Below are positions 27,244 through 40,807 of a stretch of DNA of 64,000 bases, one piece after another. A program made the position numbers and the translations under genes. Every line of letters starts with the position of its first letter. The first letter of the stretch is position 1. This DNA is from Pyrococcus sp. NA2 (lineage in GTDB: Archaea > Methanobacteriota_B > Thermococci > Thermococcales > Thermococcaceae): positions 992,001-1,056,000 of the forward strand of contig NC_015474.1 of assembly GCF_000211475.1 (NCBI RefSeq), read 5' to 3'. A model generated the notes under the pieces. That model was given only the letters and a program-made list of their open reading frames with translations, was not told where the DNA came from and did not search any database.

Positions 27244-29493
27244 TTATCTTAGAAATATTCCCCTATCAAGGACTTTTTCTTCCTGGGTATAGGTGTATCT
27301 AATTACATCTCCTTTAACCTCGGCTGGAAGTTCAAATTCTCTTAACCCTCTTACATAGTACCACTTTTCAAAGACCTTGGTACCGTTGTCTAGGAATCCT
27401 ACGATTTCCAACTTAGTACCAGTTGCATTTTCGAACTTAAATATTATCTTTCCATCTCTCCTATATATCTTGACATTCGGATGCTCAAACTTAAAGATTT
27501 TTATAAAGCCCCCATCGCTGTATGCCAGCTTATAATCCATTGGATACTTGTTTGTGAACATTAACTTTGCTAACGTTGTATTGAATGTTTTTTCGTTCAT
27601 CAATACTGCGTATCCATAGTTTAGGTTAATGTATGCATATAGGTTTGAATGAGTGTGCAATTCAACTTCTGTAATGTTTCCGTCATGCTCTACGAATACT
27701 TCTTTTGGGATATAGGTTCTCCCATTTATAGTAGTTAGAACCTCTAATTTTTTTCCTGGCTTCATGATTAGTTTATAACTTCCATATTCAAATATTAAAA
27801 CCCCAAACTTGGAGACCAATGGTAAAATAATTAGAAATTGTCCCTCCTCATTTTCATTAGCTGTCCTTAAAATTGCTCCGAACTTCAAAGCGGTATCAAA
27901 AGAAACTATAATATAATCCACCCCAAGGTTCATTAATTCCTGATCACTCACTCTACCAAGGAGATATCTAGCAACGAATTCATCTGGACTCATCTGTGCA
28001 ACTGTTCCTCTCCTAGTATAATATTCTATCCATCCCCCATAGTCCCACCAAGCTAAGATTATATCATTTTCGTTTGAATTCTCCCTAAGCCATACTAACC
28101 CTCTTTCCCAATGGATGTTCATTAAAGGCCTCTCAGTTAAGACGGTTCTAAATCCTAAGGCTCCGGTTATACTGGGCATGATTATCATTAGGATCAAAGA
28201 AACTGCCAGAGTTGCTCTACCTTTAATCCTTGAAAGCAAGAGCTCGTAAAGTGAAACTAGACCAACACCCGCCATAATGGCAATTGCCATGGAACCTATA
28301 AATAGGAATCTTGTCCAAATATATATCATCCAGAGACTTGGAATTATCGTTCCCAAGAGGAGAAAGTCTGTTACACTAACTTTTCTGCTTTTTAGAACGA
28401 AAAGTGGAGCTAGGAAAATTACAATATTGTAGGCTAACCACAGATCCGAGAATTTTGAATGTGTTGTTTCAATAATTGGAAGCTTAGAAAAAATCTTAAA
28501 ACCCAAGAATAGCCCTTTAAGTGTTGTAAATTTTGAAAATATAATTGCAAAAACCAGTAGGATTAACGATACAAAGATGAGACGGTGTTTTTCATTTTTT
28601 ATCATTTTACTTGTTAAAAATAATGTTAAAACCAAGAGTATAGCTAGTGGAACGAGATACTTTAAGTGCAGGAAAAGATAAACGTCTCCAATGTCGTTAT
28701 TGAGCTTTATCCCGAGTTTCTCCATAGTAATTTTGCCAAGCCATGTGTTTCTTCCCAACATCCCATATCTCACGATTTTCCCTAGGTAATTAGCTATCAA
28801 TGCCCCTAGAGCCGTTGAAAGTGCCAAGATTACTGAGTCAAATAGGTACCTCTCTTTCTTCAGAATGAAAGCACCAATTGCCAGGAAAGTGATATTTAGC
28901 AACAGGAAGATGAACATTAAATAATAAGCACTCCAAAAAGCTGAAACTAGGCCACTAGCAAGGGCTGGGATTAGGTAGAATGGAAGCCTCTTGGTTAATT
29001 TGTCTCTTCTTAACGCTAAGGATATGCCAAATAAAGCTATGGAATACCAGAAAAGCATGTAGTTATCTCCCCTATAATACCCTCCCATTGACCTAAATAC
29101 GTGTCCAAACATCACGGAGAGAAAGAATGAAGAGAAGAATGCTTCTCTCTTTCCATAGAAATTAAGAATTGTCAAATAGAAGAAGAATATTGTCAAAACC
29201 CCAAAGATCACTGGTGTCACTCTGAAGGCATTATATAGGGAGATTTTTAAGACCTTCCAAATATATACAGGAGTTGCATAGAATCCTAGAGGATGTCCAG
29301 TTTTATATATTAAATCTCCCCAAGGAGCATTAGCTAAGGGATAAAATTTTATCCAATATCCAACTTTTAAACTTTCCTCAATGTAGGCCAAATGAAAGTA
29401 AGGATCGTATCCGAGGAGATACCTGTACCTAAGGGTGATAATCCTTAGGGCAGTGGCAATGGCTAGTATTAGAGGAATGGCAATTTTGGGCAT
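27244..29493 (-). CDS. aglB: Oligosaccharyltransferase STT3/AglB, short form
   Basis: 749 residues. It transfers glycan from dolichyl phosphate to asparagine of exported proteins. GT-C membrane domain with about 12-13 helices; the first catalytic acidic motif is GYDPYFHLAY in external loop 1, the second is YYRGDNYMLFW, and the signature WWDYGGWIEYYT opens the soluble domain. The C-terminal domain is short (compared with about 970 residues for the long Pyrococcus AglB), so it is AglB-S-like. ATG 29493 begins MPKIAIPLILAIATAL; the frame is open 61 codons upstream, but that part looks non-coding. A GT4 gene diverges from it, and surface and GT genes follow. Confidence 0.92.
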   Translation of the reverse strand: MPKIAIPLILAIATALRIITLRYRYLLGYDPYFHLAYIEESLKVGYWIKFYPLANAPWGDLIYKTGHPLGFYATPVYIWKVLKISLYNAFRVTPVIFGVLTIFFFYLTILNFYGKREAFFSSFFLSVMFGHVFRSMGGYYRGDNYMLFWYSIALFGISLALRRDKLTKRLPFYLIPALASGLVSAFWSAYYLMFIFLLLNITFLAIGAFILKKERYLFDSVILALSTALGALIANYLGKIVRYGMLGRNTWLGKITMEKLGIKLNNDIGDVYLFLHLKYLVPLAILLVLTLFLTSKMIKNEKHRLIFVSLILLVFAIIFSKFTTLKGLFLGFKIFSKLPIIETTHSKFSDLWLAYNIVIFLAPLFVLKSRKVSVTDFLLLGTIIPSLWMIYIWTRFLFIGSMAIAIMAGVGLVSLYELLLSRIKGRATLAVSLILMIIMPSITGALGFRTVLTERPLMNIHWERGLVWLRENSNENDIILAWWDYGGWIEYYTRRGTVAQMSPDEFVARYLLGRVSDQELMNLGVDYIIVSFDTALKFGAILRTANENEEGQFLIILPLVSKFGVLIFEYGSYKLIMKPGKKLEVLTTINGRTYIPKEVFVEHDGNITEVELHTHSNLYAYINLNYGYAVLMNEKTFNTTLAKLMFTNKYPMDYKLAYSDGGFIKIFKFEHPNVKIYRRDGKIIFKFENATGTKLEIVGFLDNGTKVFEKWYYVRGLREFELPAEVKGDVIRYTYTQEEKVLDRGIFLR

Positions 29494-29602
29494 AAATATC
29501 TTTTCCCCGCTAAATCTCCTCACGCCCTGACACCTTAATGTTCTCGTATTTTTGGATTTAAAAAATGTTTTTTTGCCTGTTCTATCATGTGTCCACCCAA
29601 CG

Positions 29603-29617
29603 AATAAATATATAAAT
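29603..29617 (+). promoter_or_regulatory. TATA box for leaderless GT4 transcript
   Basis: AATAAATATATAAAT lies about 25-30 bases before the GTG at 29640. No ribosome binding site precedes that GTG, so transcription probably starts at or within a few bases of it and the message is leaderless. Confidence 0.6.
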
Positions 29618-29639
29618 CGACTTCCGTTCATCGATAATT

Positions 29640-30749
29640 GTGAGAATAGTCTACATTTATGATGCTGTCTATCCATTCATAAAAGGGGGAGTTGAAAGAA
29701 GAGTCTATGAGATAGGGAAGAGATTGGCAAAAAAACATGATGTTTATTGGTTTGGTCTCAACTGGGGGGAGGGGAGTCCAGATGGTATAGAGTTTTATGG
29801 AGTAGGAAGATGGAAAAACTTGTACAAGAACGGAAAAAGATCAATAGGGGAGGCAATTTACTTCGCCCTGAAACTTTTATTGAAATTCAAAGGCAAATAC
29901 GACATTGTTGATTGTCAACAGTTCCCTTACTTCCCATGTTTTTCGGCAAAATTCCATTCCATGATAAGGGATATTCCCCTTGTTATAACGTGGCATGAAG
30001 TTTGGAATGAGTACTGGAAAGAGTACTTAGGAAACTTGGCAATATTTGGCCTTCAAGTGGAGAGGAAAATGAGTAAAATAACGGAAAATAACATTTCAGT
30101 CTCAAGGCTAACCCAGCGAAGGCTTTATTCTATTGGCGTACACAGTGAAGTTATTCCTAATGGGATTGACTTTAAGAGAATACAGAATGTAAGTAAAAAG
30201 GATGAGGAGTACGACATAATTTTCGTGGGGAGATTGATAAGAGAGAAGAACGTTGATCTGCTTCTAAAGGCTGTTAGGATGGTTAGGGAGGACATCCCTG
30301 ATTTAAAAGTCTTAATAATTGGTGAAGGTCCAGAAAAAGAGAGACTGGTAAAATTAGCCTCTATCTTGGATCTCTCTGATAATGTGAAATTCCTAGGTTT
30401 TCTTAAGGATCATGATGAGGTTATATCTTATCTAAAGTCATCAAAAGTCTTTGTTCTCCCATCTAAACGTGAAGGTTTTGGTATAGTTGTTTTAGAGGCA
30501 AATGCTTCCGGACTTCCAGTGATAACTCTGGACTATCCTATGAATGCATCTAAAGAGCTGATAATTCATGGGTATAATGGATTCGTTTCATCACCAACTC
30601 CGGATCATCTAGCAAAGTATATAGAAATTTCACTTTCCAACAGGAAAAAATTTAGAAGAAATTGCACGAAAAATGCTAGGCGATACGATTGGAATATCAT
30701 AGCTAAACTAACAGAAAAGTTTTATGAAAGAGTCTTAAGCAAGCGCTAA
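29640..30749 (+). CDS. Glycosyltransferase family 4
   Basis: 369 residues, GT-B fold. The N-terminal domain starts RIVYIYDAVYPFIKGGVERR with the GG loop; the C-terminal domain has IIFVGRLIREKNVDLLL, VLIIGEGPEKERL, VKFLGFL and the E-x7-E motif in PSKREGFGIVVLEANASG. It transfers a sugar to a lipid- or glycan-linked acceptor, probably in N-glycan assembly given the adjacent aglB. GTG start, leaderless as judged from the TATA spacing. AT-rich and lysine-rich codon use compared with housekeeping genes suggests rapid turnover of this locus among strains. Confidence 0.9.
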   Translation: MRIVYIYDAVYPFIKGGVERRVYEIGKRLAKKHDVYWFGLNWGEGSPDGIEFYGVGRWKNLYKNGKRSIGEAIYFALKLLLKFKGKYDIVDCQQFPYFPCFSAKFHSMIRDIPLVITWHEVWNEYWKEYLGNLAIFGLQVERKMSKITENNISVSRLTQRRLYSIGVHSEVIPNGIDFKRIQNVSKKDEEYDIIFVGRLIREKNVDLLLKAVRMVREDIPDLKVLIIGEGPEKERLVKLASILDLSDNVKFLGFLKDHDEVISYLKSSKVFVLPSKREGFGIVVLEANASGLPVITLDYPMNASKELIIHGYNGFVSSPTPDHLAKYIEISLSNRKKFRRNCTKNARRYDWNIIAKLTEKFYERVLSKR

Positions 30750-30865: not shown

Positions 30866-32074
30866 CTAAAAAGAACAGCCAACAAGGCTATCCTTGTAAT
30901 ATCTGGACATATTGCCGACAGTTCTTAAAACGTTATCAGTTTTTTCTATAACTTTATCCAGTCTATATTCCCTTTCAACGAGCTTTCTACCATTTCTACC
31001 CATTTTTCTTGCTAGATAATTATCAGTAAGCAAAGTAATTATTGCCTTGGCTAACTGTACCGGATCTTTAGGTGGAACGAGGATTCCGGTTACTCCATCC
31101 TTGATAACATACTTTATCCCCCCTATCCTTGTTCCAATGACAGGTTTACCACTGGCACCTGCTTCTATCAACACCATTCCAAACCCTTCCTGAATAGTTG
31201 TTGATGGAAGGACTACCAGGTCAGAACTCCTATAAAACTCAGGTAACACATCCTCTCTGACGTACCCAGTAAATATAACTCTGTCTAAAATTCCCAGAGA
31301 GGCACAAATTTCTCTGTACTTGGGTATCATATCCCCTCTTCCCACTAGCACTAAATATGAGTCCTCCACCTGTCTTGCCACGGATTTGAAAGCAACAAGA
31401 AGGTGGGATACTCCCTTATGAGCATGCCCCCTATTCATTGTACCAATGAACATTACGATCTTCGCGGATTTTGGGAGATTGTACATCTTGTGTAATTTAT
31501 AAGATTTGCCTGGTGAATACCTTTTTACGTCGACTCCGGGAGGAATCCACACAACCCTCTCCCTCACTCTCTTAAATAGCTTGGATTCGTAGTAACAATA
31601 TGGAGAGGGTGTCACTATGATATCTGAGAGAAACAGCAAACTCTGCTGTAATGACAGATTATACATAGACGCTACAATGTTCAGAGGAAAACTTTCTTTA
31701 ACCAGATCATTATGGTATGTGAGAACAAAGGGAACTTTAGCCTTCTTAAATATATGCCTTGTTAGCATGGAAACATCTGCATAGTATGGAACGGGTGTGT
31801 GGGCATTTATTACATCGAACTTCTCCCTTTTAAGAATTTTAATGATGTGGAATGGAAGATTAAGAACTACGGGAGTGTTAGACACCACGAAATCTGGCTT
31901 GAACCTTATCACCTCTATACCATCCAAATTCTGTAAGCCGTTACCTTTTTTTGATGCTGTTATGACCTTCACTTCCCATCCCCTGTTTACAAGGCCCTTT
32001 GCTACCATGTATGCATACTTTTCAAGTCCCCCTCCTTCAGGGTAGAAGTAGGGAGTGACCATGAGTAACTTCAT
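30866..32074 (-). CDS. Glycosyltransferase family 4
   Basis: 402 residues, GT-B fold. Start MKLLMVTPYFYPEGGGLEKY; C-terminal domain with IVMFIGTMNRGHAHKGVSHL, YLVLVGRGDMIPKY, VIFTGYVRED and the E-x7-E motif in PSTTIQEGFGMVLIEAGASG. Similar to mannosyl- and glucosyltransferases of archaeal N-glycan pathways; sugar and linkage unknown. It is convergent with the upstream GT4 across a 116-bp gap that shows no gene. Its upstream region (32075-32280) is AT-rich and shared with the divergent secreted protein. Confidence 0.9.
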   Translation of the reverse strand: MKLLMVTPYFYPEGGGLEKYAYMVAKGLVNRGWEVKVITASKKGNGLQNLDGIEVIRFKPDFVVSNTPVVLNLPFHIIKILKREKFDVINAHTPVPYYADVSMLTRHIFKKAKVPFVLTYHNDLVKESFPLNIVASMYNLSLQQSLLFLSDIIVTPSPYCYYESKLFKRVRERVVWIPPGVDVKRYSPGKSYKLHKMYNLPKSAKIVMFIGTMNRGHAHKGVSHLLVAFKSVARQVEDSYLVLVGRGDMIPKYREICASLGILDRVIFTGYVREDVLPEFYRSSDLVVLPSTTIQEGFGMVLIEAGASGKPVIGTRIGGIKYVIKDGVTGILVPPKDPVQLAKAIITLLTDNYLARKMGRNGRKLVEREYRLDKVIEKTDNVLRTVGNMSRYYKDSLVGCSF

Positions 32075-32279: not shown

Positions 32280-32302
32280 AAAAGGCGAAAAGCTTATATA
32301 TG
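32280..32302 (+). promoter_or_regulatory. Strong BRE/TATA promoter of the secreted surface protein
   Basis: GCGAAAAGCTTATATATG has a purine-rich BRE directly before a canonical TTATATAT box. Transcription would start about 25 bases on (near 32322), giving a ~40-nt leader with GGGGGGAAG as ribosome binding site. The strength fits an abundant surface protein. Upstream, 32100-32279 is very AT-rich with no frame. Confidence 0.7.
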
Positions 32303-32362: not shown

Positions 32363-34885
32363 ATGAAGAAAGCCCTTAGCTTGGTCTTAGTTTTGTTTGT
32401 ATTAGCAATGTCAGTGCCTACAGCAATGGCTACCCCACTACTACCAACAAAGGCAATAAACTTCAAGCAGTCTGGAGACGAGTCACTGCCTAACATCAAC
32501 TTCATAACCTCACCTCAATTATCAAATGACACTACGGGTGCTACCGACGTTGAGTTAACCCTTTACTTCAACAATTCTCTGCTGGATCTCCCAGGAGGAG
32601 GCCAGGGACTCATTAAGATAGGTTTCACTGGAATATCCCCATTTAATGTCACCCAAGTGGACTTGGTTTCATTCGAGATCAATGGAAATGACGTGACAGA
32701 CAAGGTAGTTGATGTTGTACGTTATCAGCAGGATCCCTCTGATCCTCAGGTTCAATCAGTGTTCATCTATGTTACCGACATATCAATAGCCCCCACTGAC
32801 AAGGTTAAGATAGTGCTTGGAGGTCTCAAGAACCCAGATGTTCCCGGAACTTATACAATCAGCGTTGGTACCTATGTTGGTGGAAACCCAAGGTCATCGG
32901 GTACCGCAAAAGTTGTCATTAAGGGACCAAAGCCACCACTCACGTTGCCAGAGCCATTCATCATTGGTTGGCATGTGGATTATTCAGAGTGCAGTGGCTG
33001 CAATCCCGATCACCACTATGACATACTTGATACTGAACTGGTAGGCTACAGAGACGATGGGCCTGTCTATGAGATAAGCTATCCAAAAGAATACACGATC
33101 GGCTGTGATGAGGATACCTTCTACTACAACATCTATGCTTGGAACCTCAGCTACCAGAATTTGACCTTCAAGGGAGTTAAGGTGTTTGTTAACAATGAAA
33201 TAGAACTATGGTTGCCAGCAGAGTACTTCAGGACATACAAGGAGTGCCACCTCATAAGCGATGGCATAGTTAGCAGTGGAGTTATCACCGAGGACTTTAC
33301 TGAGAAGGTTCCAGAAGGAGAAAAAGACTACCTTAAAGGGTGGAAGCTTGAGGGATTCCAGCATGCGGAGCCTGCGGACTTTGTACTGTACTTCAACAGG
33401 GAATATGGATGGGCTCTAACAACGAACCCAACCAGCTACGATATAGTTAATAACAGCTACATAATGACCGACCCAATGTCCCTAATCGACGGCACTAGTG
33501 CAGATGTCAAGAGCTTTACTGGATATGTGTATGTTTCGTTTGACTACGCACTGGCCCTTGACGAGAACGTAACTGTGTACTTCCAGTACAGAGTCTACGA
33601 TAATGATTGGAGCGACTGGATAACTGTAAGAAAGTTCACAAGCGTTGATGAAGCGGAGTATGCAACCTATGTTACCTCTACTCCAATATTCGTGAGGAAC
33701 GTAACTAAGATACAGTTCAGGTTCTATGTCAACTACACTAAAGTTGACAAGTTCACAAAGCCAGGATTTGCCCTGTTCACGTTCAAAGTGACAAATGACA
33801 GAGTAACCGACTGTGACATAGTGTACGCCGTTAATCCAAAAGATAATAAGAACACAACGCTCTTCGTATACAACCTGAGCATCACGCCAAATGTAACCCT
33901 TTCAGAAGGTGAGAAAGCGACAATAGAGGTTGAAGCCATCTACGAGCTTACTGATGAGGAGTTACTCGAGAAGTACGACCCAATCCAAGTTGCCAGCCAG
34001 GACTTCAACGTCTCTAGAGAGGAGTGTGTTGACTTCACCCTCTGTGGCCTTCTCAGCAACGCTAGGTACATCGTCATAGGTGGCGGAAGCTGGACGCACG
34101 GGTCACCACAGCCCTACTTCGGTTGGGAGTTCGATGAGAACCAGAAGCCAGTAATAAGGAGCGGTCACGGCTCCCTTGCAGCGGATAACCTTGGTGTGCT
34201 GTTCTTCCTCAGCCAGGCAGGAGCAGATCCAAACAAGGTGATATTCGACGACAATCCACAATACGTGAACCTAACGACGGGTGAGATAAGAGGACTCGAG
34301 AAGGGAGACATAGTCATACTCGTTGGCTCAAGCGGTGTGAACTTACCACTTGGATACTATGAGTACGTGACCAAGGAGGCACCAGTCGTCAGGATACCAC
34401 CACAGAACGGAATGTGGGACGCCTTTGTACTACCAAACGGAACAGTTGTTGAGTGGGAAGGACCAGACGAGCAGTGGTACGATGTTTGGGAGGATGTCTT
34501 CGTCATCCAGTGGTTCACAACAGAGGATGGAGTAATAGTCTTCTCGGTCGAGGGAGCTGGCGTCGACGGTACCGTTGCAGCTTCATGGCTCGTCGCATGG
34601 CTAGTTGCAAGTGGCTATGGAAATGAAGTGCTTCCATCAAGCGGATACATAGTCGGCAGGTGGTACGAGGATATTGCGGAAGGATATCCTCGCAACATCA
34701 TCTTCGCGCCGGCCTGGATCAGGGGCTCACCTGACGACGTCAACGGCTTCAGCACTGGCGACGACTACATCAAGATTGAGTACATGAGCCACCCAGGACT
34801 CTTTGGTCTTGAGCCAGGAGATATAATACAGACTTACCCAATACCAAGTTGCTTCTGTGAACAGCCATACTATCCACTCCCGTGA
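32363..34885 (+). CDS. Large secreted surface (S-layer-like) protein
   Basis: 840 residues. A clear signal peptide (MKKALSLVLVLFVLAMS, cleavage after AMA), then beta-rich domains with many aromatic and Asn/Thr residues and more than a dozen N-x-S/T sequons. Paired cysteines (CSGCNPD, CDED, CHL, CDIV, CVDFTLCG, CFCEQ) suggest disulfides. The part from about residue 570 resembles surface-layer proteins of Thermococcales (YIVIGGGSWTHG, GLEKGDIVILVGSSG), and the last ~110 residues (GTVAASWLVAWLVAS, YIVGRWY, DDVNGFSTGDDYI) recur in the membrane protein 35689-37917. No membrane anchor is present. It is probably a glycosylated coat protein and a likely client of the local aglB. Codon use is more biased than its neighbours, as expected for high expression. 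Confidence 0.8.
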   Translation: MKKALSLVLVLFVLAMSVPTAMATPLLPTKAINFKQSGDESLPNINFITSPQLSNDTTGATDVELTLYFNNSLLDLPGGGQGLIKIGFTGISPFNVTQVDLVSFEINGNDVTDKVVDVVRYQQDPSDPQVQSVFIYVTDISIAPTDKVKIVLGGLKNPDVPGTYTISVGTYVGGNPRSSGTAKVVIKGPKPPLTLPEPFIIGWHVDYSECSGCNPDHHYDILDTELVGYRDDGPVYEISYPKEYTIGCDEDTFYYNIYAWNLSYQNLTFKGVKVFVNNEIELWLPAEYFRTYKECHLISDGIVSSGVITEDFTEKVPEGEKDYLKGWKLEGFQHAEPADFVLYFNREYGWALTTNPTSYDIVNNSYIMTDPMSLIDGTSADVKSFTGYVYVSFDYALALDENVTVYFQYRVYDNDWSDWITVRKFTSVDEAEYATYVTSTPIFVRNVTKIQFRFYVNYTKVDKFTKPGFALFTFKVTNDRVTDCDIVYAVNPKDNKNTTLFVYNLSITPNVTLSEGEKATIEVEAIYELTDEELLEKYDPIQVASQDFNVSREECVDFTLCGLLSNARYIVIGGGSWTHGSPQPYFGWEFDENQKPVIRSGHGSLAADNLGVLFFLSQAGADPNKVIFDDNPQYVNLTTGEIRGLEKGDIVILVGSSGVNLPLGYYEYVTKEAPVVRIPPQNGMWDAFVLPNGTVVEWEGPDEQWYDVWEDVFVIQWFTTEDGVIVFSVEGAGVDGTVAASWLVAWLVASGYGNEVLPSSGYIVGRWYEDIAEGYPRNIIFAPAWIRGSPDDVNGFSTGDDYIKIEYMSHPGLFGLEPGDIIQTYPIPSCFCEQPYYPLP

Positions 34886-34906
34886 TTCCCTAACTCCTCT
34901 CTTAAG

Positions 34907-34934
34907 TTTCTTTTTACTAATTTTTTCTTGTTTT
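34907..34934 (+). terminator. T-rich terminator after the surface protein gene
   Basis: TTTCTTTTT and TTTTTTCTTGTTTT follow the stop codon within 50 bases, as usual for archaeal termination. The next gene starts immediately behind, so some read-through or a weak internal start is likely. Confidence 0.55.
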
Positions 34935-34939
34935 AAGGG

Positions 34940-35692
34940 GTGTTTAGGGTGAAAGATATTCTTTACTTGTTGACCTTTTTGGTAACGATGATTCTTGGAG
35001 CTGTAGTCGTTGTTTCCGTTTTCAATCAGCCACATTCTCACGGTTACACGAAGGTTTACTTTGAAAATGATGTTTTTCCTGTTTTGTCCCCAAACAAAAC
35101 CTATGAGATTGCATTCATAATAGAATCCCACGAGAAAAGACAGATGAAGTACATCTACACCATCTATCTTGACAACTCTTCGGTGAAGAGTGGTGAAATT
35201 GTACTAAACCCAAGTGACGTAAAGAGGATTTCTGTTAACGTATCACTTGAAAAGATTCCTTATTCTAAGCAGATACTTAAGGAGAGCTATACAAATATGA
35301 CCGTTGAGAATCCAGCGGCTCTTGTTAAGGTGCCCTGGGCGTACGGTGTAGATCTGTCCAAGCAGAGAAACTGGAGTGGCGAAGAGTTACTATATGTGAT
35401 AAAGAATTTCCCGTTATTCTATATTGGAGAGGAGGGAGTGTCTGTTATAGTGAATACCACCAGTGGAACGAACGTAACTGACATCTCTATAGAGCGTTCT
35501 GGGAATGGGTTTATCAAAACGATTCGGGAGTTCAACGTGACCCCTGTCCAAAACGGATATGTTGTTAGCATTAGAACCGTCAAGATAAAGTATTATCCTC
35601 GCCCAGTCGAGCTTAAGGTGATAGTAATTTCGGATTCAGGTAAGAGATACACTTTAAAGACAATGTTAAGCGTTGAGGGGGGAGACAGTTGA
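34940..35692 (+). CDS. Exported one-pass membrane protein, DUF1616-like
   Basis: About 250 residues. An N-terminal membrane helix (about residues 8-27) and an extracellular beta-rich domain (KYIYTIYLDNSSVKSGEIVL, ISVNVSLEKI) of the kind seen in DUF1616 proteins; the family match is by impression. Eight or so sequons. Starts GTG 34940 or GTG 34949, neither with good spacing to a ribosome binding site. The end overlaps the TTG start of the next gene by 4 nt (TTGA), so both are made together. A role as partner of the following membrane protein is likely but unproven. Confidence 0.7.
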   Translation: MFRVKDILYLLTFLVTMILGAVVVVSVFNQPHSHGYTKVYFENDVFPVLSPNKTYEIAFIIESHEKRQMKYIYTIYLDNSSVKSGEIVLNPSDVKRISVNVSLEKIPYSKQILKESYTNMTVENPAALVKVPWAYGVDLSKQRNWSGEELLYVIKNFPLFYIGEEGVSVIVNTTSGTNVTDISIERSGNGFIKTIREFNVTPVQNGYVVSIRTVKIKYYPRPVELKVIVISDSGKRYTLKTMLSVEGGDS

Positions 35693-37917
35693 GCTACACA
35701 CTCTTATTCTTTCTACTATTTGTGCTCTTGACGGTCTTCACTGTAGCTTTGCTTAGGTTTAACACTAAGGTTAAGCTCTTCCTTCTCATGTTCTTTGCTT
35801 TTGTTCTCAACGTTTATATTCGCTTTGGCTTTGGAAGGTATTTCACGACTTTTGACGAGAGTTATTATTTGTTTTTGATTAGTGATAGATACTTCTATTT
35901 GGAGTGGCCCTTCTCTGGTTTCGTACTTCCTTTCCTTCTTGGAAAGGTCTCGGCAATGCTAAATCTTCAACCTCTTTCAGTTGTATGGGGTTTTTCTATT
36001 TTGACGTTCGTCCTCTATGTTCCAACTATCTACTGGTTTTATAGAAAACTCAAGCTTTCAAGGAAGACTGCGTTGTTTTCGGTCTTAACTTTGTTCTTGT
36101 CAAGCTACTACATATGGTCAGGCATTGAGGTTAGGCCTCAGGAGGTTGGAGCTTTATTGGGTGTGATAGCTACCGGTCATTACATCACTACTATTGAGAA
36201 TCGGACGAGATTCAATGTTATTGTTCTCCCAGTGCTTTTTGTACTTCTCGCTCTTTCCCACATTCTCTCGTTCTTCCTGTTCTCAATGCTTTTGTTATTT
36301 TATACTGTTTATGTCTTTTTAGCTGGAAAGATTTCAGAGTTTGGGAAACTATACTTCGTTCTATCTTTTTCAATTCTTCTTGGGCTAGTTATCGTTCTAT
36401 GGTTTCCACCCTATGATAGAATGGTTGAGGCCGTAATATGGATGGTCAATAATATGAGGCTTCTGAATTTGTCAATAACTTTACAACATTTTAGGATTAT
36501 GGTTATCATTGGTTACGTATCTGGCATAGTTCTTTTATGGTTACTTACATTTCTCCTCTCAAGATCAATTTTACGCCTATGGAATTTTTTCAAAATCATT
36601 ACCTGTAAGTTCTTTACTCCTCTTTTATTACTGGCTGCTTTTGGAGGGGGAATCGCTCTATATCTTCAGTTCATGCTGAACGCTCAAGCGTACAGTAAGG
36701 TCTATGGAGGTTCGCTCTTGACGTTTATATTCTTCCAATTAGGGAATATGTTCTTTGGATTGCTATTCATTTACTCCTTCTTTAGGAGGATTAGAGATGG
36801 AAAGTTCTTGACATTTGATGTTTTGGCGCTATCTTGGATCATTATCGGTGGATTAATGCTTCTGCTTTCGTTTATGATGCCAAAGGGTACGGGAGGGTGG
36901 GGATTCAATAACTGGCTCATTAGGGTGCTTCAATACTTTCCCATATTTGGTGCTCCTCTTGTTGCATATGTTCTCATGGAACATCTTAATGAAATTCATA
37001 AGAGAACTTTCCATGCCAATATAGTGTTTCTCCTCTCGACTCTCATTGTGGTTAGCACTCTTAACGTTGCCAGGATTTCCCCCTTCTATAACTATGAAGG
37101 GGTTATCACGGATGAGTTTATGGATATAGTGTCATATTGTCAAGACAATGGCTGTCTCTTGGCGTGGGATAGACACTCCGAATTTAAAGATTTTGTTATA
37201 ACAAACTTCTTTAGGGCTTATCTTCCTGGAATCAGGTTCATTACAGGGAATGAGAATTGCTCATATCTAACTTTTTCATCCGATAGCTTTAGAGTTTACA
37301 AGACGATGTTCTTTACTTTGACATTTGAATCTCTAGCAGAATATTCGTCATTTCTTCTGAGGACGTCTGGCAATTTGAAATCTCCCGATCAGAGATCTGA
37401 GCTTGAATATTCTATGAAACTCTTGGGAAGTATATATTCGATATCTCCCGTGAATGATCTCGAATGTCATGAAATCTTTAGCTCTAAGGAACCCGTAATA
37501 CTGGTTGGAGTTGAGATGAATGATTGCACGAAGAAGCTCATAGCATCAAATTCTCTTCCTGTATTTATCACTTCAAATAAGATGATCACGCCGTTCAAGG
37601 AATATCCTTTTTATCCCCCAAGGGAAAACTGGTGGAATGTAACTGAAGGGTACTTTGTAATTCAGGTGATTGAGAACTACCAGAATACACCTATTCTAGT
37701 TATCTTTGGAACGGATATTGATTCAACGGTTGCTGGCATCTGGTATTTTGTGAAGGAGGTTTATCCGAATTTAATTGATAAATATGCAAACGTGCACTAC
37801 ATATTTGGAAAATGGATTGAAAAGGATTATAAGGTTTGGAAAGGTCTGAAATTTGCGCCTAATGATGTGAATGGGTTTTCGGAAGGAGATGAAATTGAAA
37901 TCTTGGAGATTAACTAG
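35689..37917 (+). CDS. GT-C-like polytopic membrane protein with C-terminal surface-protein domain
   Basis: 742 residues. About 11-13 membrane helices occupy residues 1-460; the first external loop has TFDESYYLF, the acidic pair expected in GT-C transferases that use dolichyl-phosphate sugars. A ~280-residue external part follows. Its last ~90 residues (DIDSTVAGIWYFVKEV, YIFGKWIE, FAPNDVNGFSEGDEIEI) match the C-terminus of the secreted protein 32363-34885. TTG start with GGGGGGAGA upstream, overlapping the previous stop. The architecture suggests a transferase held in contact with the surface layer, or a surface-layer anchor. Family name uncertain. Confidence 0.78.
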   Translation: MSYTLLFFLLFVLLTVFTVALLRFNTKVKLFLLMFFAFVLNVYIRFGFGRYFTTFDESYYLFLISDRYFYLEWPFSGFVLPFLLGKVSAMLNLQPLSVVWGFSILTFVLYVPTIYWFYRKLKLSRKTALFSVLTLFLSSYYIWSGIEVRPQEVGALLGVIATGHYITTIENRTRFNVIVLPVLFVLLALSHILSFFLFSMLLLFYTVYVFLAGKISEFGKLYFVLSFSILLGLVIVLWFPPYDRMVEAVIWMVNNMRLLNLSITLQHFRIMVIIGYVSGIVLLWLLTFLLSRSILRLWNFFKIITCKFFTPLLLLAAFGGGIALYLQFMLNAQAYSKVYGGSLLTFIFFQLGNMFFGLLFIYSFFRRIRDGKFLTFDVLALSWIIIGGLMLLLSFMMPKGTGGWGFNNWLIRVLQYFPIFGAPLVAYVLMEHLNEIHKRTFHANIVFLLSTLIVVSTLNVARISPFYNYEGVITDEFMDIVSYCQDNGCLLAWDRHSEFKDFVITNFFRAYLPGIRFITGNENCSYLTFSSDSFRVYKTMFFTLTFESLAEYSSFLLRTSGNLKSPDQRSELEYSMKLLGSIYSISPVNDLECHEIFSSKEPVILVGVEMNDCTKKLIASNSLPVFITSNKMITPFKEYPFYPPRENWWNVTEGYFVIQVIENYQNTPILVIFGTDIDSTVAGIWYFVKEVYPNLIDKYANVHYIFGKWIEKDYKVWKGLKFAPNDVNGFSEGDEIEILEIN

Positions 37918-37933
37918 TTTGGGGGTGTTAACA

Positions 37934-38425
37934 ATGGTAAATCGAGTACGAATTGTCGTTGGCATGTTTTATGCACTCTTCATATTATTTTTAGTATGGA
38001 GGGTGTTCCTCAGGGGAACACCTCCCCTTATATGGGATCAGGCAATCCACTTTATCGCCAGTGTTAAGTATTATAATGCCCTAATGCATTTTGAGTTATC
38101 CGATTTAGTTTATGCGGATAGGTATTACCCTCCGCTCCCACAGTTGTTTGCAATTCCTGGTTACATAATTTTTGGTCCTTCTGTTTCTGTGGGGGTCTTT
38201 ACCTTAAATGCTATAGCCGTTGGAATCATGCTCTATGCCACTTATAAAATTTCAAAATTAATGAGGGTAAGTCCTCCCGTTCCAATATTTATGATATTAA
38301 CTTCCCCAATAATACTTGATCAAGCGACAACATTCATGATGGATATAACCCTGACATCAATTGTCGTACTCACTTGGTACCGTTGGATCCTTTGTTTTTC
38401 CTCTTTTGGACATCAAAAATATTAA
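37934..38425 (+). pseudogene. Truncated GT-C (PMT-like) membrane glycosyltransferase
   Basis: About 163 residues, starting with GGGGGTG upstream of ATG 37934. Membrane helix 1, then PLIWDQAIHFIASVKYY (acidic loop typical of PMT/ArnT-like GT-C enzymes), ADRYYPPLPQLFAIPGYI and two or three further helices. Full members have 450-600 residues. After DITLTSIVVLTWY the frame ends quickly, while the next frame reads DPLFFLFWTSKILKDRD, which looks like the C-terminus of the same kind of protein. A deletion of most of the gene around 38370 explains both. Product probably inactive. Confidence 0.65.
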
Positions 38426-38460: not shown

Positions 38461-39582
38461 ATGAACATTGACGTTTCGATAATCCTTCCAACCATGAATG
38501 AGGAGAAAGCGATAGGAAAGATAATCCCCCAAATCAAGGAAACCCTTGACAAAATGGGGGTATCGTATGAAATCATAGTTGTGGACAAGAGTAGCGATAG
38601 AACCCCGGAGATAGCTAAGAGTCTAGGAGCCAAGGTTATTAAACAGAAGGGAAAAGGTTATGGGGATGCATACCTGGAGGGATTCAAAGTAGCAAGGGGA
38701 AAGTACATTGTGATGCTTGATCCAGATGGTAGTTATGATCCTAGAGAGATTCCAAAATTTTTAGAAGTTCTGATGAATGAAAACGTTGATTTTGTAATTG
38801 GGAGTAGACTAAGGGGCAAAATTGAACCTGGTGCAATGCCATGGTTACATCGTTATATTGGCAACCCCATCTTAACGAAAATTCTAAACATATTGTTTAA
38901 AGTTGGAATTTCAGATGCTCATTGTGGCTTCAGAGCAATAAAGAAGGAAGCTCTCCAAAAGCTTTCTTTGAAGTGTAAAGGGATGGAATTTGCCAGCGAG
39001 ATGATTATAGAAGCTGCGAAGGTGGGTCTAAAGATTAAGGAGATTCCTATAACATATCACCCAAGGATTGGGGAATCAAAACTTCATTCATTTAGAGATG
39101 GATGGAGACACTTGAGGTTAATGCTTTTGTATTCTCCTTCCCACCTTTTTCTACTTCCTGGCTCTTTATTGATGTTGGTTGGTCTAATACTCTTAGTTTA
39201 TGCTTATAACACGAACCCTCTAAGGATGCACACGATGATTCTTGGGAGTCTTCTTACTATAGTTGGCTTTCAGATAATTAATTTTGGAATCTCTGGAAAG
39301 GTTTATGCGGTTAAAGAAGGACTAGATAAGCCTGATAAGGCAACTAAGTTCTTCATGAGGTATTCAATCCTTGAGGAAGGGTTGATCCTTGGGGGATTGT
39401 TGCTTTTATCTGGCTTACTCCTTGGAATAAGGATATTTCTCAGGTGGAGGGCTCTTGGTTATGGAGAGCTGTTTGAAATAAAATCTACAATATTAGTATT
39501 GACGCTCATAGCCTTGAGTGTCCAACTAATATTCTTCTCTTTCTTCATAAGCTTTCTAATGCTCAAAGAGAATTTTGAGTAG
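38461..39582 (+). CDS. Dolichyl-phosphate hexose synthase-like GT2 with C-terminal membrane domain
   Basis: 373 residues. GT-A domain as in DPM1 and GtrB: SIILPTMNEEKAIGKI, IIVVDKSSDRT, VMLDPDGSYDP (DxD), IGSRLRG, DAHCGFRAI and YHPRIGESKLHSF; then four membrane helices (about residues 225-370). It should load a sugar from a nucleotide onto dolichyl phosphate as donor for GT-C enzymes. ATG 38461 follows GGGGAGGAGCTCAA; the frame is open upstream into the truncated GT-C remnant. Its 3' end overlaps the flippase gene on the other strand by 20 nt. Confidence 0.9.
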   Translation: MNIDVSIILPTMNEEKAIGKIIPQIKETLDKMGVSYEIIVVDKSSDRTPEIAKSLGAKVIKQKGKGYGDAYLEGFKVARGKYIVMLDPDGSYDPREIPKFLEVLMNENVDFVIGSRLRGKIEPGAMPWLHRYIGNPILTKILNILFKVGISDAHCGFRAIKKEALQKLSLKCKGMEFASEMIIEAAKVGLKIKEIPITYHPRIGESKLHSFRDGWRHLRLMLLYSPSHLFLLPGSLLMLVGLILLVYAYNTNPLRMHTMILGSLLTIVGFQIINFGISGKVYAVKEGLDKPDKATKFFMRYSILEEGLILGGLLLLSGLLLGIRIFLRWRALGYGELFEIKSTILVLTLIALSVQLIFFSFFISFLMLKENFE

Positions 39583-40807
39583 GTGTACACTTTATGACAT
39601 GTATGAGCAAAGTGATGAGCGTCAGGATACTCACGATTGTCAACATATTTATTATTGATTGGATATTTCCCCCTCCTACGGATAGTAAAACAACTTCAAT
39701 TGTAAGCAAGCTCAAGAGGGATAGGGATATGTTCGTTTCGTTTATCGAAAGCAGATAATTAATGAGGACATTTGCAAGAGAGAATAAGGTCATTGCTAGT
39801 CCATATCTCCAGATGTAGGGAGATATAGTGAGGTACCTTTCCCCATAGACAGTTCTTATTACGAATTCAGGAAATAGAGCATAAGTTAGAACAACCCCAC
39901 CAGAGATCAAAGATGTTATCACAAGTCCCTCTACCAATATTTTAGTTGACCTCTCTCCTTTCTCGTACATCTCAGCAACCTTTGGAAATATTACTAGGCT
40001 AACTGCCCAGGGAGCAAATAGTGTTATCTTCCCTAAAACTGAAACTGCCGAGTACTCTCCAGCCTCCAATGGAGAGAGATAGTGTTTAGCTAAAATTACA
40101 TCAATGTTCCACATTGTTGTATAAGCGAATATCGCTAAGAATGATATGCCACCATAACTTACAATACTTCTAAGACTGATCTCAGTGTTCTCCTTAATTT
40201 TGAGCACATCCATGAGGAAGATCAACGTTATCAAGAAAGACATGAGATACGCTAGAAATGTCCCAGAGACAGCGCCAATAATACCGAAGCCTAATAGAAC
40301 TAGGGTAAGACCAAGGAGAAGTCTAAAAACTGACCATGAAAACATACTAATTCCCAGGGCTTTAAACCTTTGAAGTCCTCTTAAAACTCCCTGATAAACT
40401 GGAAGAACAAGGGCAAAAGGAATCGATGCAAAGAGAACCACCATTGGCAGAGGATCTTCAATGTTCAGAAAGCTTGATATGTATGAACTTAAAAGCACAA
40501 TAGCAAAGAAAATTATTCCTCCAGCTATGACGAGATCCTTGCTCAACTTTAGGAGAAGTGTCTTTATTTTTCCATATTCTCTTCTTGTCTTACAAATTGA
40601 TGTGAACTTAGTCACAGAGGTATCTATAGTTATGAAAAACACTGAGAATATGTAAAACAGAGAGAACAAACTGAATAGCTCTCCATATTCTTCGGGAGTC
40701 AGCAATCTCCCCATAAAAAGCTGATAAATGTAGTTGAAAAAATTTGAAAGTGTAACCATGATTGTCATGACAAATGTATCCCTAAGAAATTCACTTTTTA
40801 GGGACAT
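39563..40807 (-). CDS. Polysaccharide/lipid-linked oligosaccharide flippase (Wzx-like, MATE-like fold)
   Basis: 414 residues, about 12-14 membrane helices. The start resembles polysaccharide biosynthesis proteins (SNFFNYIYQLFMGRLLTPEEYG, SLFSLFYIFSVF), and later GISFLAIFAYTTMWNIDVILAK and LSPLEAGEYSAVSVLG are characteristic. It probably turns over the lipid-linked glycan so that AglB can use it outside. GGAGGTGGG precedes the ATG. Upstream there is an AT-rich promoter-like stretch (40840-40856). Confidence 0.86.
   Translation of the reverse strand: MSLKSEFLRDTFVMTIMVTLSNFFNYIYQLFMGRLLTPEEYGELFSLFSLFYIFSVFFITIDTSVTKFTSICKTRREYGKIKTLLLKLSKDLVIAGGIIFFAIVLLSSYISSFLNIEDPLPMVVLFASIPFALVLPVYQGVLRGLQRFKALGISMFSWSVFRLLLGLTLVLLGFGIIGAVSGTFLAYLMSFLITLIFLMDVLKIKENTEISLRSIVSYGGISFLAIFAYTTMWNIDVILAKHYLSPLEAGEYSAVSVLGKITLFAPWAVSLVIFPKVAEMYEKGERSTKILVEGLVITSLISGGVVLTYALFPEFVIRTVYGERYLTISPYIWRYGLAMTLFSLANVLINYLLSINETNISLSLLSLLTIEVVLLSVGGGNIQSIINMLTIVSILTLITLLIHVIKCTPTQNSL

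Follow-up and report, generated by a model that had tools for sequence, protein, structure and literature searches.

Several described systems bear on the attachment and glycosylation of archaeal surface proteins. The PDB entry 9FSA comprises residues 24-75 and 484-576 of the M. voltae S-layer protein, the domain responsible for anchor dimerisation (PMC11410804). This dimeric anchor domain has been recognised only recently and is predicted also for the S-layers of Pyrococcus abyssi and Thermococcus (PMC11410804). By electron microscopy, a double S-layer is common in Thermococcales (PMC5744192). Lattice-forming S-layer proteins are taken here to be those (TIGR01564 / PF05123+PF05124) of 570-680 aa in which the anchor domain is split around the S-layer core. 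How the S-layer and other helix-less surface proteins are attached to the membrane in Thermococcales and Methanococcales is an unsettled question. In Sulfolobales, the membrane protein SlaB, a stalk with no enzyme fold, keeps the secreted coat protein SlaA attached to the membrane. AglS of Haloferax volcanii is a polytopic enzyme that extends the S-layer glycan by a sugar taken from dolichyl phosphate, working on the outer side of the membrane; it is not known to contain an S-layer-type domain or to pair with a dedicated secreted client.

The window, that is, the whole stretch of 64,000 nucleotides of the Pyrococcus sp. NA2 genome that was analysed, contains three consecutive + strand genes (32363-37917), as its preliminary description had reported, which encode a secreted protein of 840 aa, a one-pass protein of 250 aa and a polytopic protein of 742 aa. 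These genes lie within a glycosylation cluster, the features of which are as follows.

27244-29676, - strand: STT3/AglB-like oligosaccharyltransferase paralogue (STT3/AglB match) of the same cluster
29640-30749, + strand: GT4 glycosyltransferase of the cluster
30866-32074, - strand: GT4 glycosyltransferase of the cluster, with homologues adjoining most related loci
32363-34885, + strand: secreted client protein, 840 aa, with one N-terminal signal segment and no C-terminal membrane helix
34178-34798, + strand: S-layer-anchor-type tail of the client, about residues 606-812, with the core shared stretch at 34460-34768
34940-35692, + strand: one-pass exported protein, 250 aa, weakly DUF1616-like, confined to one of two GT-C subfamilies
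35689-37917, + strand: polytopic GT-C-fold membrane protein with an S-layer-anchor-type C-terminal domain, 742 aa
35854-35859, + strand: Asp56-Glu57 in the first outer loop of GT-C, candidate catalytic motif, invariant in 19 of 19 sequences
37357-37914, + strand: S-layer-anchor-type tail of GT-C, about residues 557-742
37871-38425, + strand: N-terminal fragment, 184 aa, of a second GT-C of the PMT_2 type, with an intact counterpart of 720 aa next to the related locus L058
38374-39582, + strand: GT2 resembling AglJ/dolichyl-phosphate-sugar synthases, with membrane helices at the C-terminus; probably supplies the donor
39563-40807, - strand: Polysacc_synt-type flippase

An upstream ATG at 32300 in the list of open reading frames would make the secreted protein 861 aa long. 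DUF1616 is matched by 7 of 9 homologues of the one-pass protein (best E 0.0014), the window protein itself scoring below the curated cut-off. The fragment at 37871-38425 overlaps the ends of both neighbouring genes, and the STT3/AglB paralogue recurs beside many related loci.

The C-terminal match between the secreted and polytopic proteins that had been proposed initially withstands scrutiny, and the homologous region, put at ~100 residues in the preliminary description, is longer, about 150-190 residues. When the polytopic protein was searched against the whole 1.86-Mb genome, the secreted gene was the sole other match, with residues 643-736 of GT-C aligned to the secreted tail at 35% identity (E 3.6e-5). 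A profile made from the GT-C tails alone (19 genomes) retrieved the secreted protein at E 6.6e-13, as the sole other match among the 63 open reading frames of the window, and the reverse profile, made only from secreted tails of other genomes, retrieved the window GT-C at E 1.1e-34. The whole-genome E-value and the profile searches in both directions rule out chance similarity. In structure models, the predicted secondary structure elements follow the same order in both tails. In the tree of the tails, those of GT-C form a single clade and all secreted tails fall on the other side (support 96/87), suggesting one split followed by co-inheritance. The GTDxDST motif is missing from the GT-C tail of the second GT-C subfamily, an observation that counts against the explanation favoured below. 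A general cytoplasmic domain, the occurrence of which in many unrelated proteins would have spoken against the original proposal, is likewise ruled out: all intact carriers other than GT-C are exported proteins with an N-terminal signal-like segment, and the carriers without such a segment are contig-cut or broken genes. Beyond Thermococcaceae, sister families yielded only weak tail matches, some to secreted proteins and some to others.

By sequence comparison, the tail is a divergent, contiguous relative of the S-layer domain PF05124 (S_layer_C). This family matches 22 of 35 tails at E<=0.1, and one secreted carrier (L084) reaches 29.2 bits against the curated cut-off of 23.9; full-length GT-C proteins yield three weak matches (best E 0.0029), and the Pfam search of the two window proteins yielded no PF05124 match. 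When the tails were compared by hhalign with the C-terminal ~120 residues of genuine S-layer proteins from Thermococcales, the probability was 90.3% (E 1.5e-6, 81 columns), and the only PDB sequence match to the tail is 9FSA (E 0.0078). The surface-layer type assigned to the domain at the outset is thus corroborated by PF05124, hhalign and 9FSA; its presumed role in joining coat subunits, that is, in lattice contact, is not, the domain being the membrane-side dimerising anchor module of the S-layer. Nor is the 840-aa protein the coat protein that it had been taken for, because the genome encodes a canonical S-layer protein elsewhere, in a separate gene (674 aa, L181:4496-6520); the client carries the tail alone, and a role as the main S-layer protein is ruled out. 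With the whole client model as query, Foldseek returned nothing more specific than beta-sandwich and adhesin matches of a generic kind, at low TM-scores, a result that is uninformative because most of the model, outside the tail, is of low confidence. The client of the window contains 15 N-glycosylation sequons vs 5.4 in shuffles (z 4.8). In every full GT-C locus, the adjacent client likewise has more sequons than shuffled sequences of the same composition (z 3.5 to 15).

The assignment of the polytopic protein to the GT-C superfamily is upheld both by structure search, which recovers the transmembrane fold, and by an acidic motif in the first outer loop. Its structure model (mean pLDDT 87.6) has PglB, AglB and human OST as the top Foldseek matches (E 1e-4 to 1e-6, all <=1.6e-4), followed by weaker matches to PMT and ArnT; the superposition TM over the whole chain, about 0.35-0.4, is low, which counts against the favoured explanation. 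Across 19 GT-C homologues, with identities down to 25%, D56E57 does not vary, nor do dozens of further core residues. In the Pfam search, the transmembrane core matched no family, and neither PF02516 nor the AglB or PglB core domain of STT3/AglB oligosaccharyltransferases was matched in GT-C. Given the matches of the model, the conserved core and the lack of a Pfam match, the structure model identifies the protein as a GT-C-fold member of a family not described by Pfam, probably an active enzyme.

Tailed GT-C proteins, two of them pieces cut by contig ends, are encoded in 21 of 94 Thermococcaceae genomes. The gene set, a search for which in other Thermococcales had been proposed as a check, therefore recurs, with the one-pass gene present in only one of the two GT-C subfamilies; the arrangement spans four genera, with GT-C identities down to 25%. 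Each of the 19 full GT-C loci contains, in the same cluster and on the same strand, a gene for a tailed secreted protein of 836 to 2933 aa, either directly upstream of GT-C or separated from it by one to four genes: the one-pass gene and, in two of the loci, others as well. Tails on proteins other than GT-C are found in 21 of 21 GT-C genomes vs 3 of 73 others (Fisher p 4e-18; phylogeny ignored). The three exceptions are G028, G034 and G036, in the first two of which the genes are broken. In G028, GT-C is cut down to a 55-residue, stop-containing end (L078:3496-3663) and both tailed clients are broken (L078:13162-16136; L079:10427-11676), a case of joint decay; in G034, the client is frameshifted. 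G036, a draft genome that is 98% complete, encodes one intact tailed solute-binding protein with no GT-C found, which again counts against the favoured explanation. At the site that adjoins GT-C in related genomes, no GT-C was seen in either G034 or G036. The S-layer protein is present in 91 of 94 genomes. A close homologue of the GT2 is encoded in 19 of 21 GT-C genomes vs 10 of 73 others (Fisher p 9e-11; phylogeny ignored), and with these 10 genomes having GT2 without GT-C, it is not quite a strict member of the set.

Of the six loci that a scan of named genomes yielded, five belong to Thermococci MAGs, on contigs equal in length to contigs of the present set, and the sixth to a MAG labelled as Thermotogaceae. 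The latter (L145), a 5-kb contig that carries the one-pass and GT-C genes at 52-54% identity to a Thermococcaceae locus, is probably misbinned. A sister family (L139-L144, genomes G099-G107) encodes a secreted protein of 321-334 aa, with an N-terminal S-layer-anchor-like domain and an unrelated C-terminal half.

The adjacent secreted protein is not the only carrier of the tail. Some genomes encode further carriers, SBP_bac_5 solute-binding proteins and beta-helix proteins; in complete genomes, the non-adjacent clients lie roughly 20-40 kb from GT-C, so that the co-occurrence may in part be due to a single region of surface genes having been gained and lost as a unit. Among homologous solute-binding proteins that are 55-80% identical, some have at the C-terminus a Thr-rich linker followed by a membrane helix or CGP-CTERM, and others the tail without any helix; the tail thus takes the place of a membrane anchor. 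A C-terminal sorting signal of the CGP-CTERM or PGF-CTERM type, that is, a short motif plus a hydrophobic helix, is absent from the tailed clients, which have no C-terminal helix; there is no CGP-CTERM match in L073, and the homologue L156 has one at 28.8 bits. The solute-binding clients show little or no enrichment in sequons, so glycosylation would concern the adjacent client rather than every client. The solute-binding proteins of ~810 aa (L160-L180) are circularly permuted relative to the tailed 955-aa one (L073:7399-10266): the region matching query residues 371-698 precedes that matching residues 10-358, at 55-80% identity.

The explanation we favour, to which we give about an even chance, is that the tail serves for anchoring or docking, with GT-C as its membrane partner and the adjacent protein as both client and substrate. 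Under this scheme, a free-standing relative of the S-layer anchor would have come to serve as a C-terminal docking module on helix-less exported proteins, and GT-C, bearing the same module on the outer face, would be the membrane partner of these clients. Tail would pair with tail, holding the client at the membrane beside the active site of GT-C; the neighbouring GT2 would make the dolichyl-phosphate-sugar donor, and GT-C would add donor sugars to the adjacent client or to its glycans. Of this scheme, the sequence and structure comparisons show the homology of the tails, the GT-C fold with its invariant DE motif, the conserved neighbourhood, the co-occurrence of GT-C with clients, the exchange of membrane anchors for the tail and the abundance of sequons in the adjacent client; the tail-tail pairing, the tethering via GT-C and the glycosyl transfer are inferred. 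A broader and more tentative version, which we hold to be possible and somewhat less probable, is a surface-display hub, in which the anchor-type domain of the membrane GT-C would recognise its like, borne as a tag at the C-terminus of several exported proteins, whether large glycoproteins, solute-binding proteins or beta-helix proteins; GT-C would tether and glycosylate these clients and so replace C-terminal membrane anchors.

The preliminary description had suggested that GT-C is built into, or anchors, the surface layer through the shared domain. The GT-C fold and the S-layer-type tail agree with this suggestion; the partner of the GT-C tail is more likely to be the tails of the secreted clients than the S-layer lattice because the S-layer is present in almost every genome and GT-C in only 21. 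The main rival explanation nevertheless assigns both tails to the lattice: each would plug independently into the anchor domain of the main S-layer protein, and GT-C, stationed under the lattice, would act on any exported protein without holding clients. We consider this unlikely. It accounts for the homology of the tail to the S-layer anchor, the parent domain of the tail is carried by the real S-layer protein in 91 of 94 genomes, and G036 offers a tailed client without a detected GT-C; yet it predicts that tailed clients without GT-C are common, and it does not account for their near absence, such clients being seen in 3 of 73 genomes and broken in two of these.

It is decidedly improbable that GT-C is a dead enzyme acting as a mere membrane anchor for the client, as SlaB does for SlaA in Sulfolobales. 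The conserved gene neighbourhood and the lack of a C-terminal membrane helix in the clients would fit such a role, but a pure anchor would need neither D56E57 and the many other GT-C-core residues that are invariant across 19 sequences, down to 25% identity, nor the co-occurring donor-synthase-like GT2. Still harder to credit is a functionless domain fusion or duplication between neighbouring genes, to which we assign the lowest probability: adjacency and the single clade of GT-C tails would follow from one such fusion, but not the retention of the arrangement in 21 genomes of four genera, with GT-C identities down to 25%, or the joint decay in G028. Finally, the 840-aa protein and its larger counterparts might form a subunit of a second Thermococcales surface layer, with GT-C as its anchor. 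The clients are large, secreted and rich in sequons, with an S-layer-type tail, and double layers are common in the order, which makes these proteins candidates for the second surface layers of electron microscopy (PMC5744192); but the protein occurs in only about a fifth of genomes and varies in size from 836 to 2933 aa, leaving this reading with a very small probability. It is an add-on to the favoured explanation rather than an alternative to tethering.

If the favoured explanation is true, GT-C would be a glycosyltransferase with a built-in substrate-docking domain, and in some Thermococcaceae it may both hold the large secreted products of neighbouring genes at the membrane and attach sugars to them. 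With an anchor domain as its covalent tail, GT-C is a concrete candidate for the membrane partner of helix-less surface proteins.

With the S-layer anchor (M. voltae 9FSA/PF05124), the tail shares a homologous core, a GGPxxN strand-helix followed by a strand and a GTDxxxT helix, as well as the C-terminal position and the membrane-side role. In S-layer proteins, however, the anchor domain is split between both chain ends, whereas here it is contiguous, extended by a conserved YIVGxW...DxNGFSxGDxI end, and found on a GT-C enzyme as well as on unrelated exported proteins. CGP-CTERM and C-terminal transmembrane anchors occupy the same C-terminal position in homologous Thermococcales solute-binding proteins, but they are short helices without association with GT-C, whereas the tail is a folded domain of about 150-190 residues. 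AglB/PglB/STT3, PMT and ArnT share with GT-C the transmembrane fold, as judged by structure search, the acidic motif in the first outer loop and an extracytoplasmic C-terminal domain; unlike in those enzymes, the transmembrane core here has no Pfam match, and in place of an AglB/PglB core or MIR domain the C-terminus carries a domain of the S-layer-anchor type. GT-C can further be likened to Haloferax volcanii AglS, in being polytopic and in probably adding sugar on the outer face, and the proposed pair of client and GT-C to SlaA and SlaB, with the difference that GT-C has an enzyme fold and SlaB does not.
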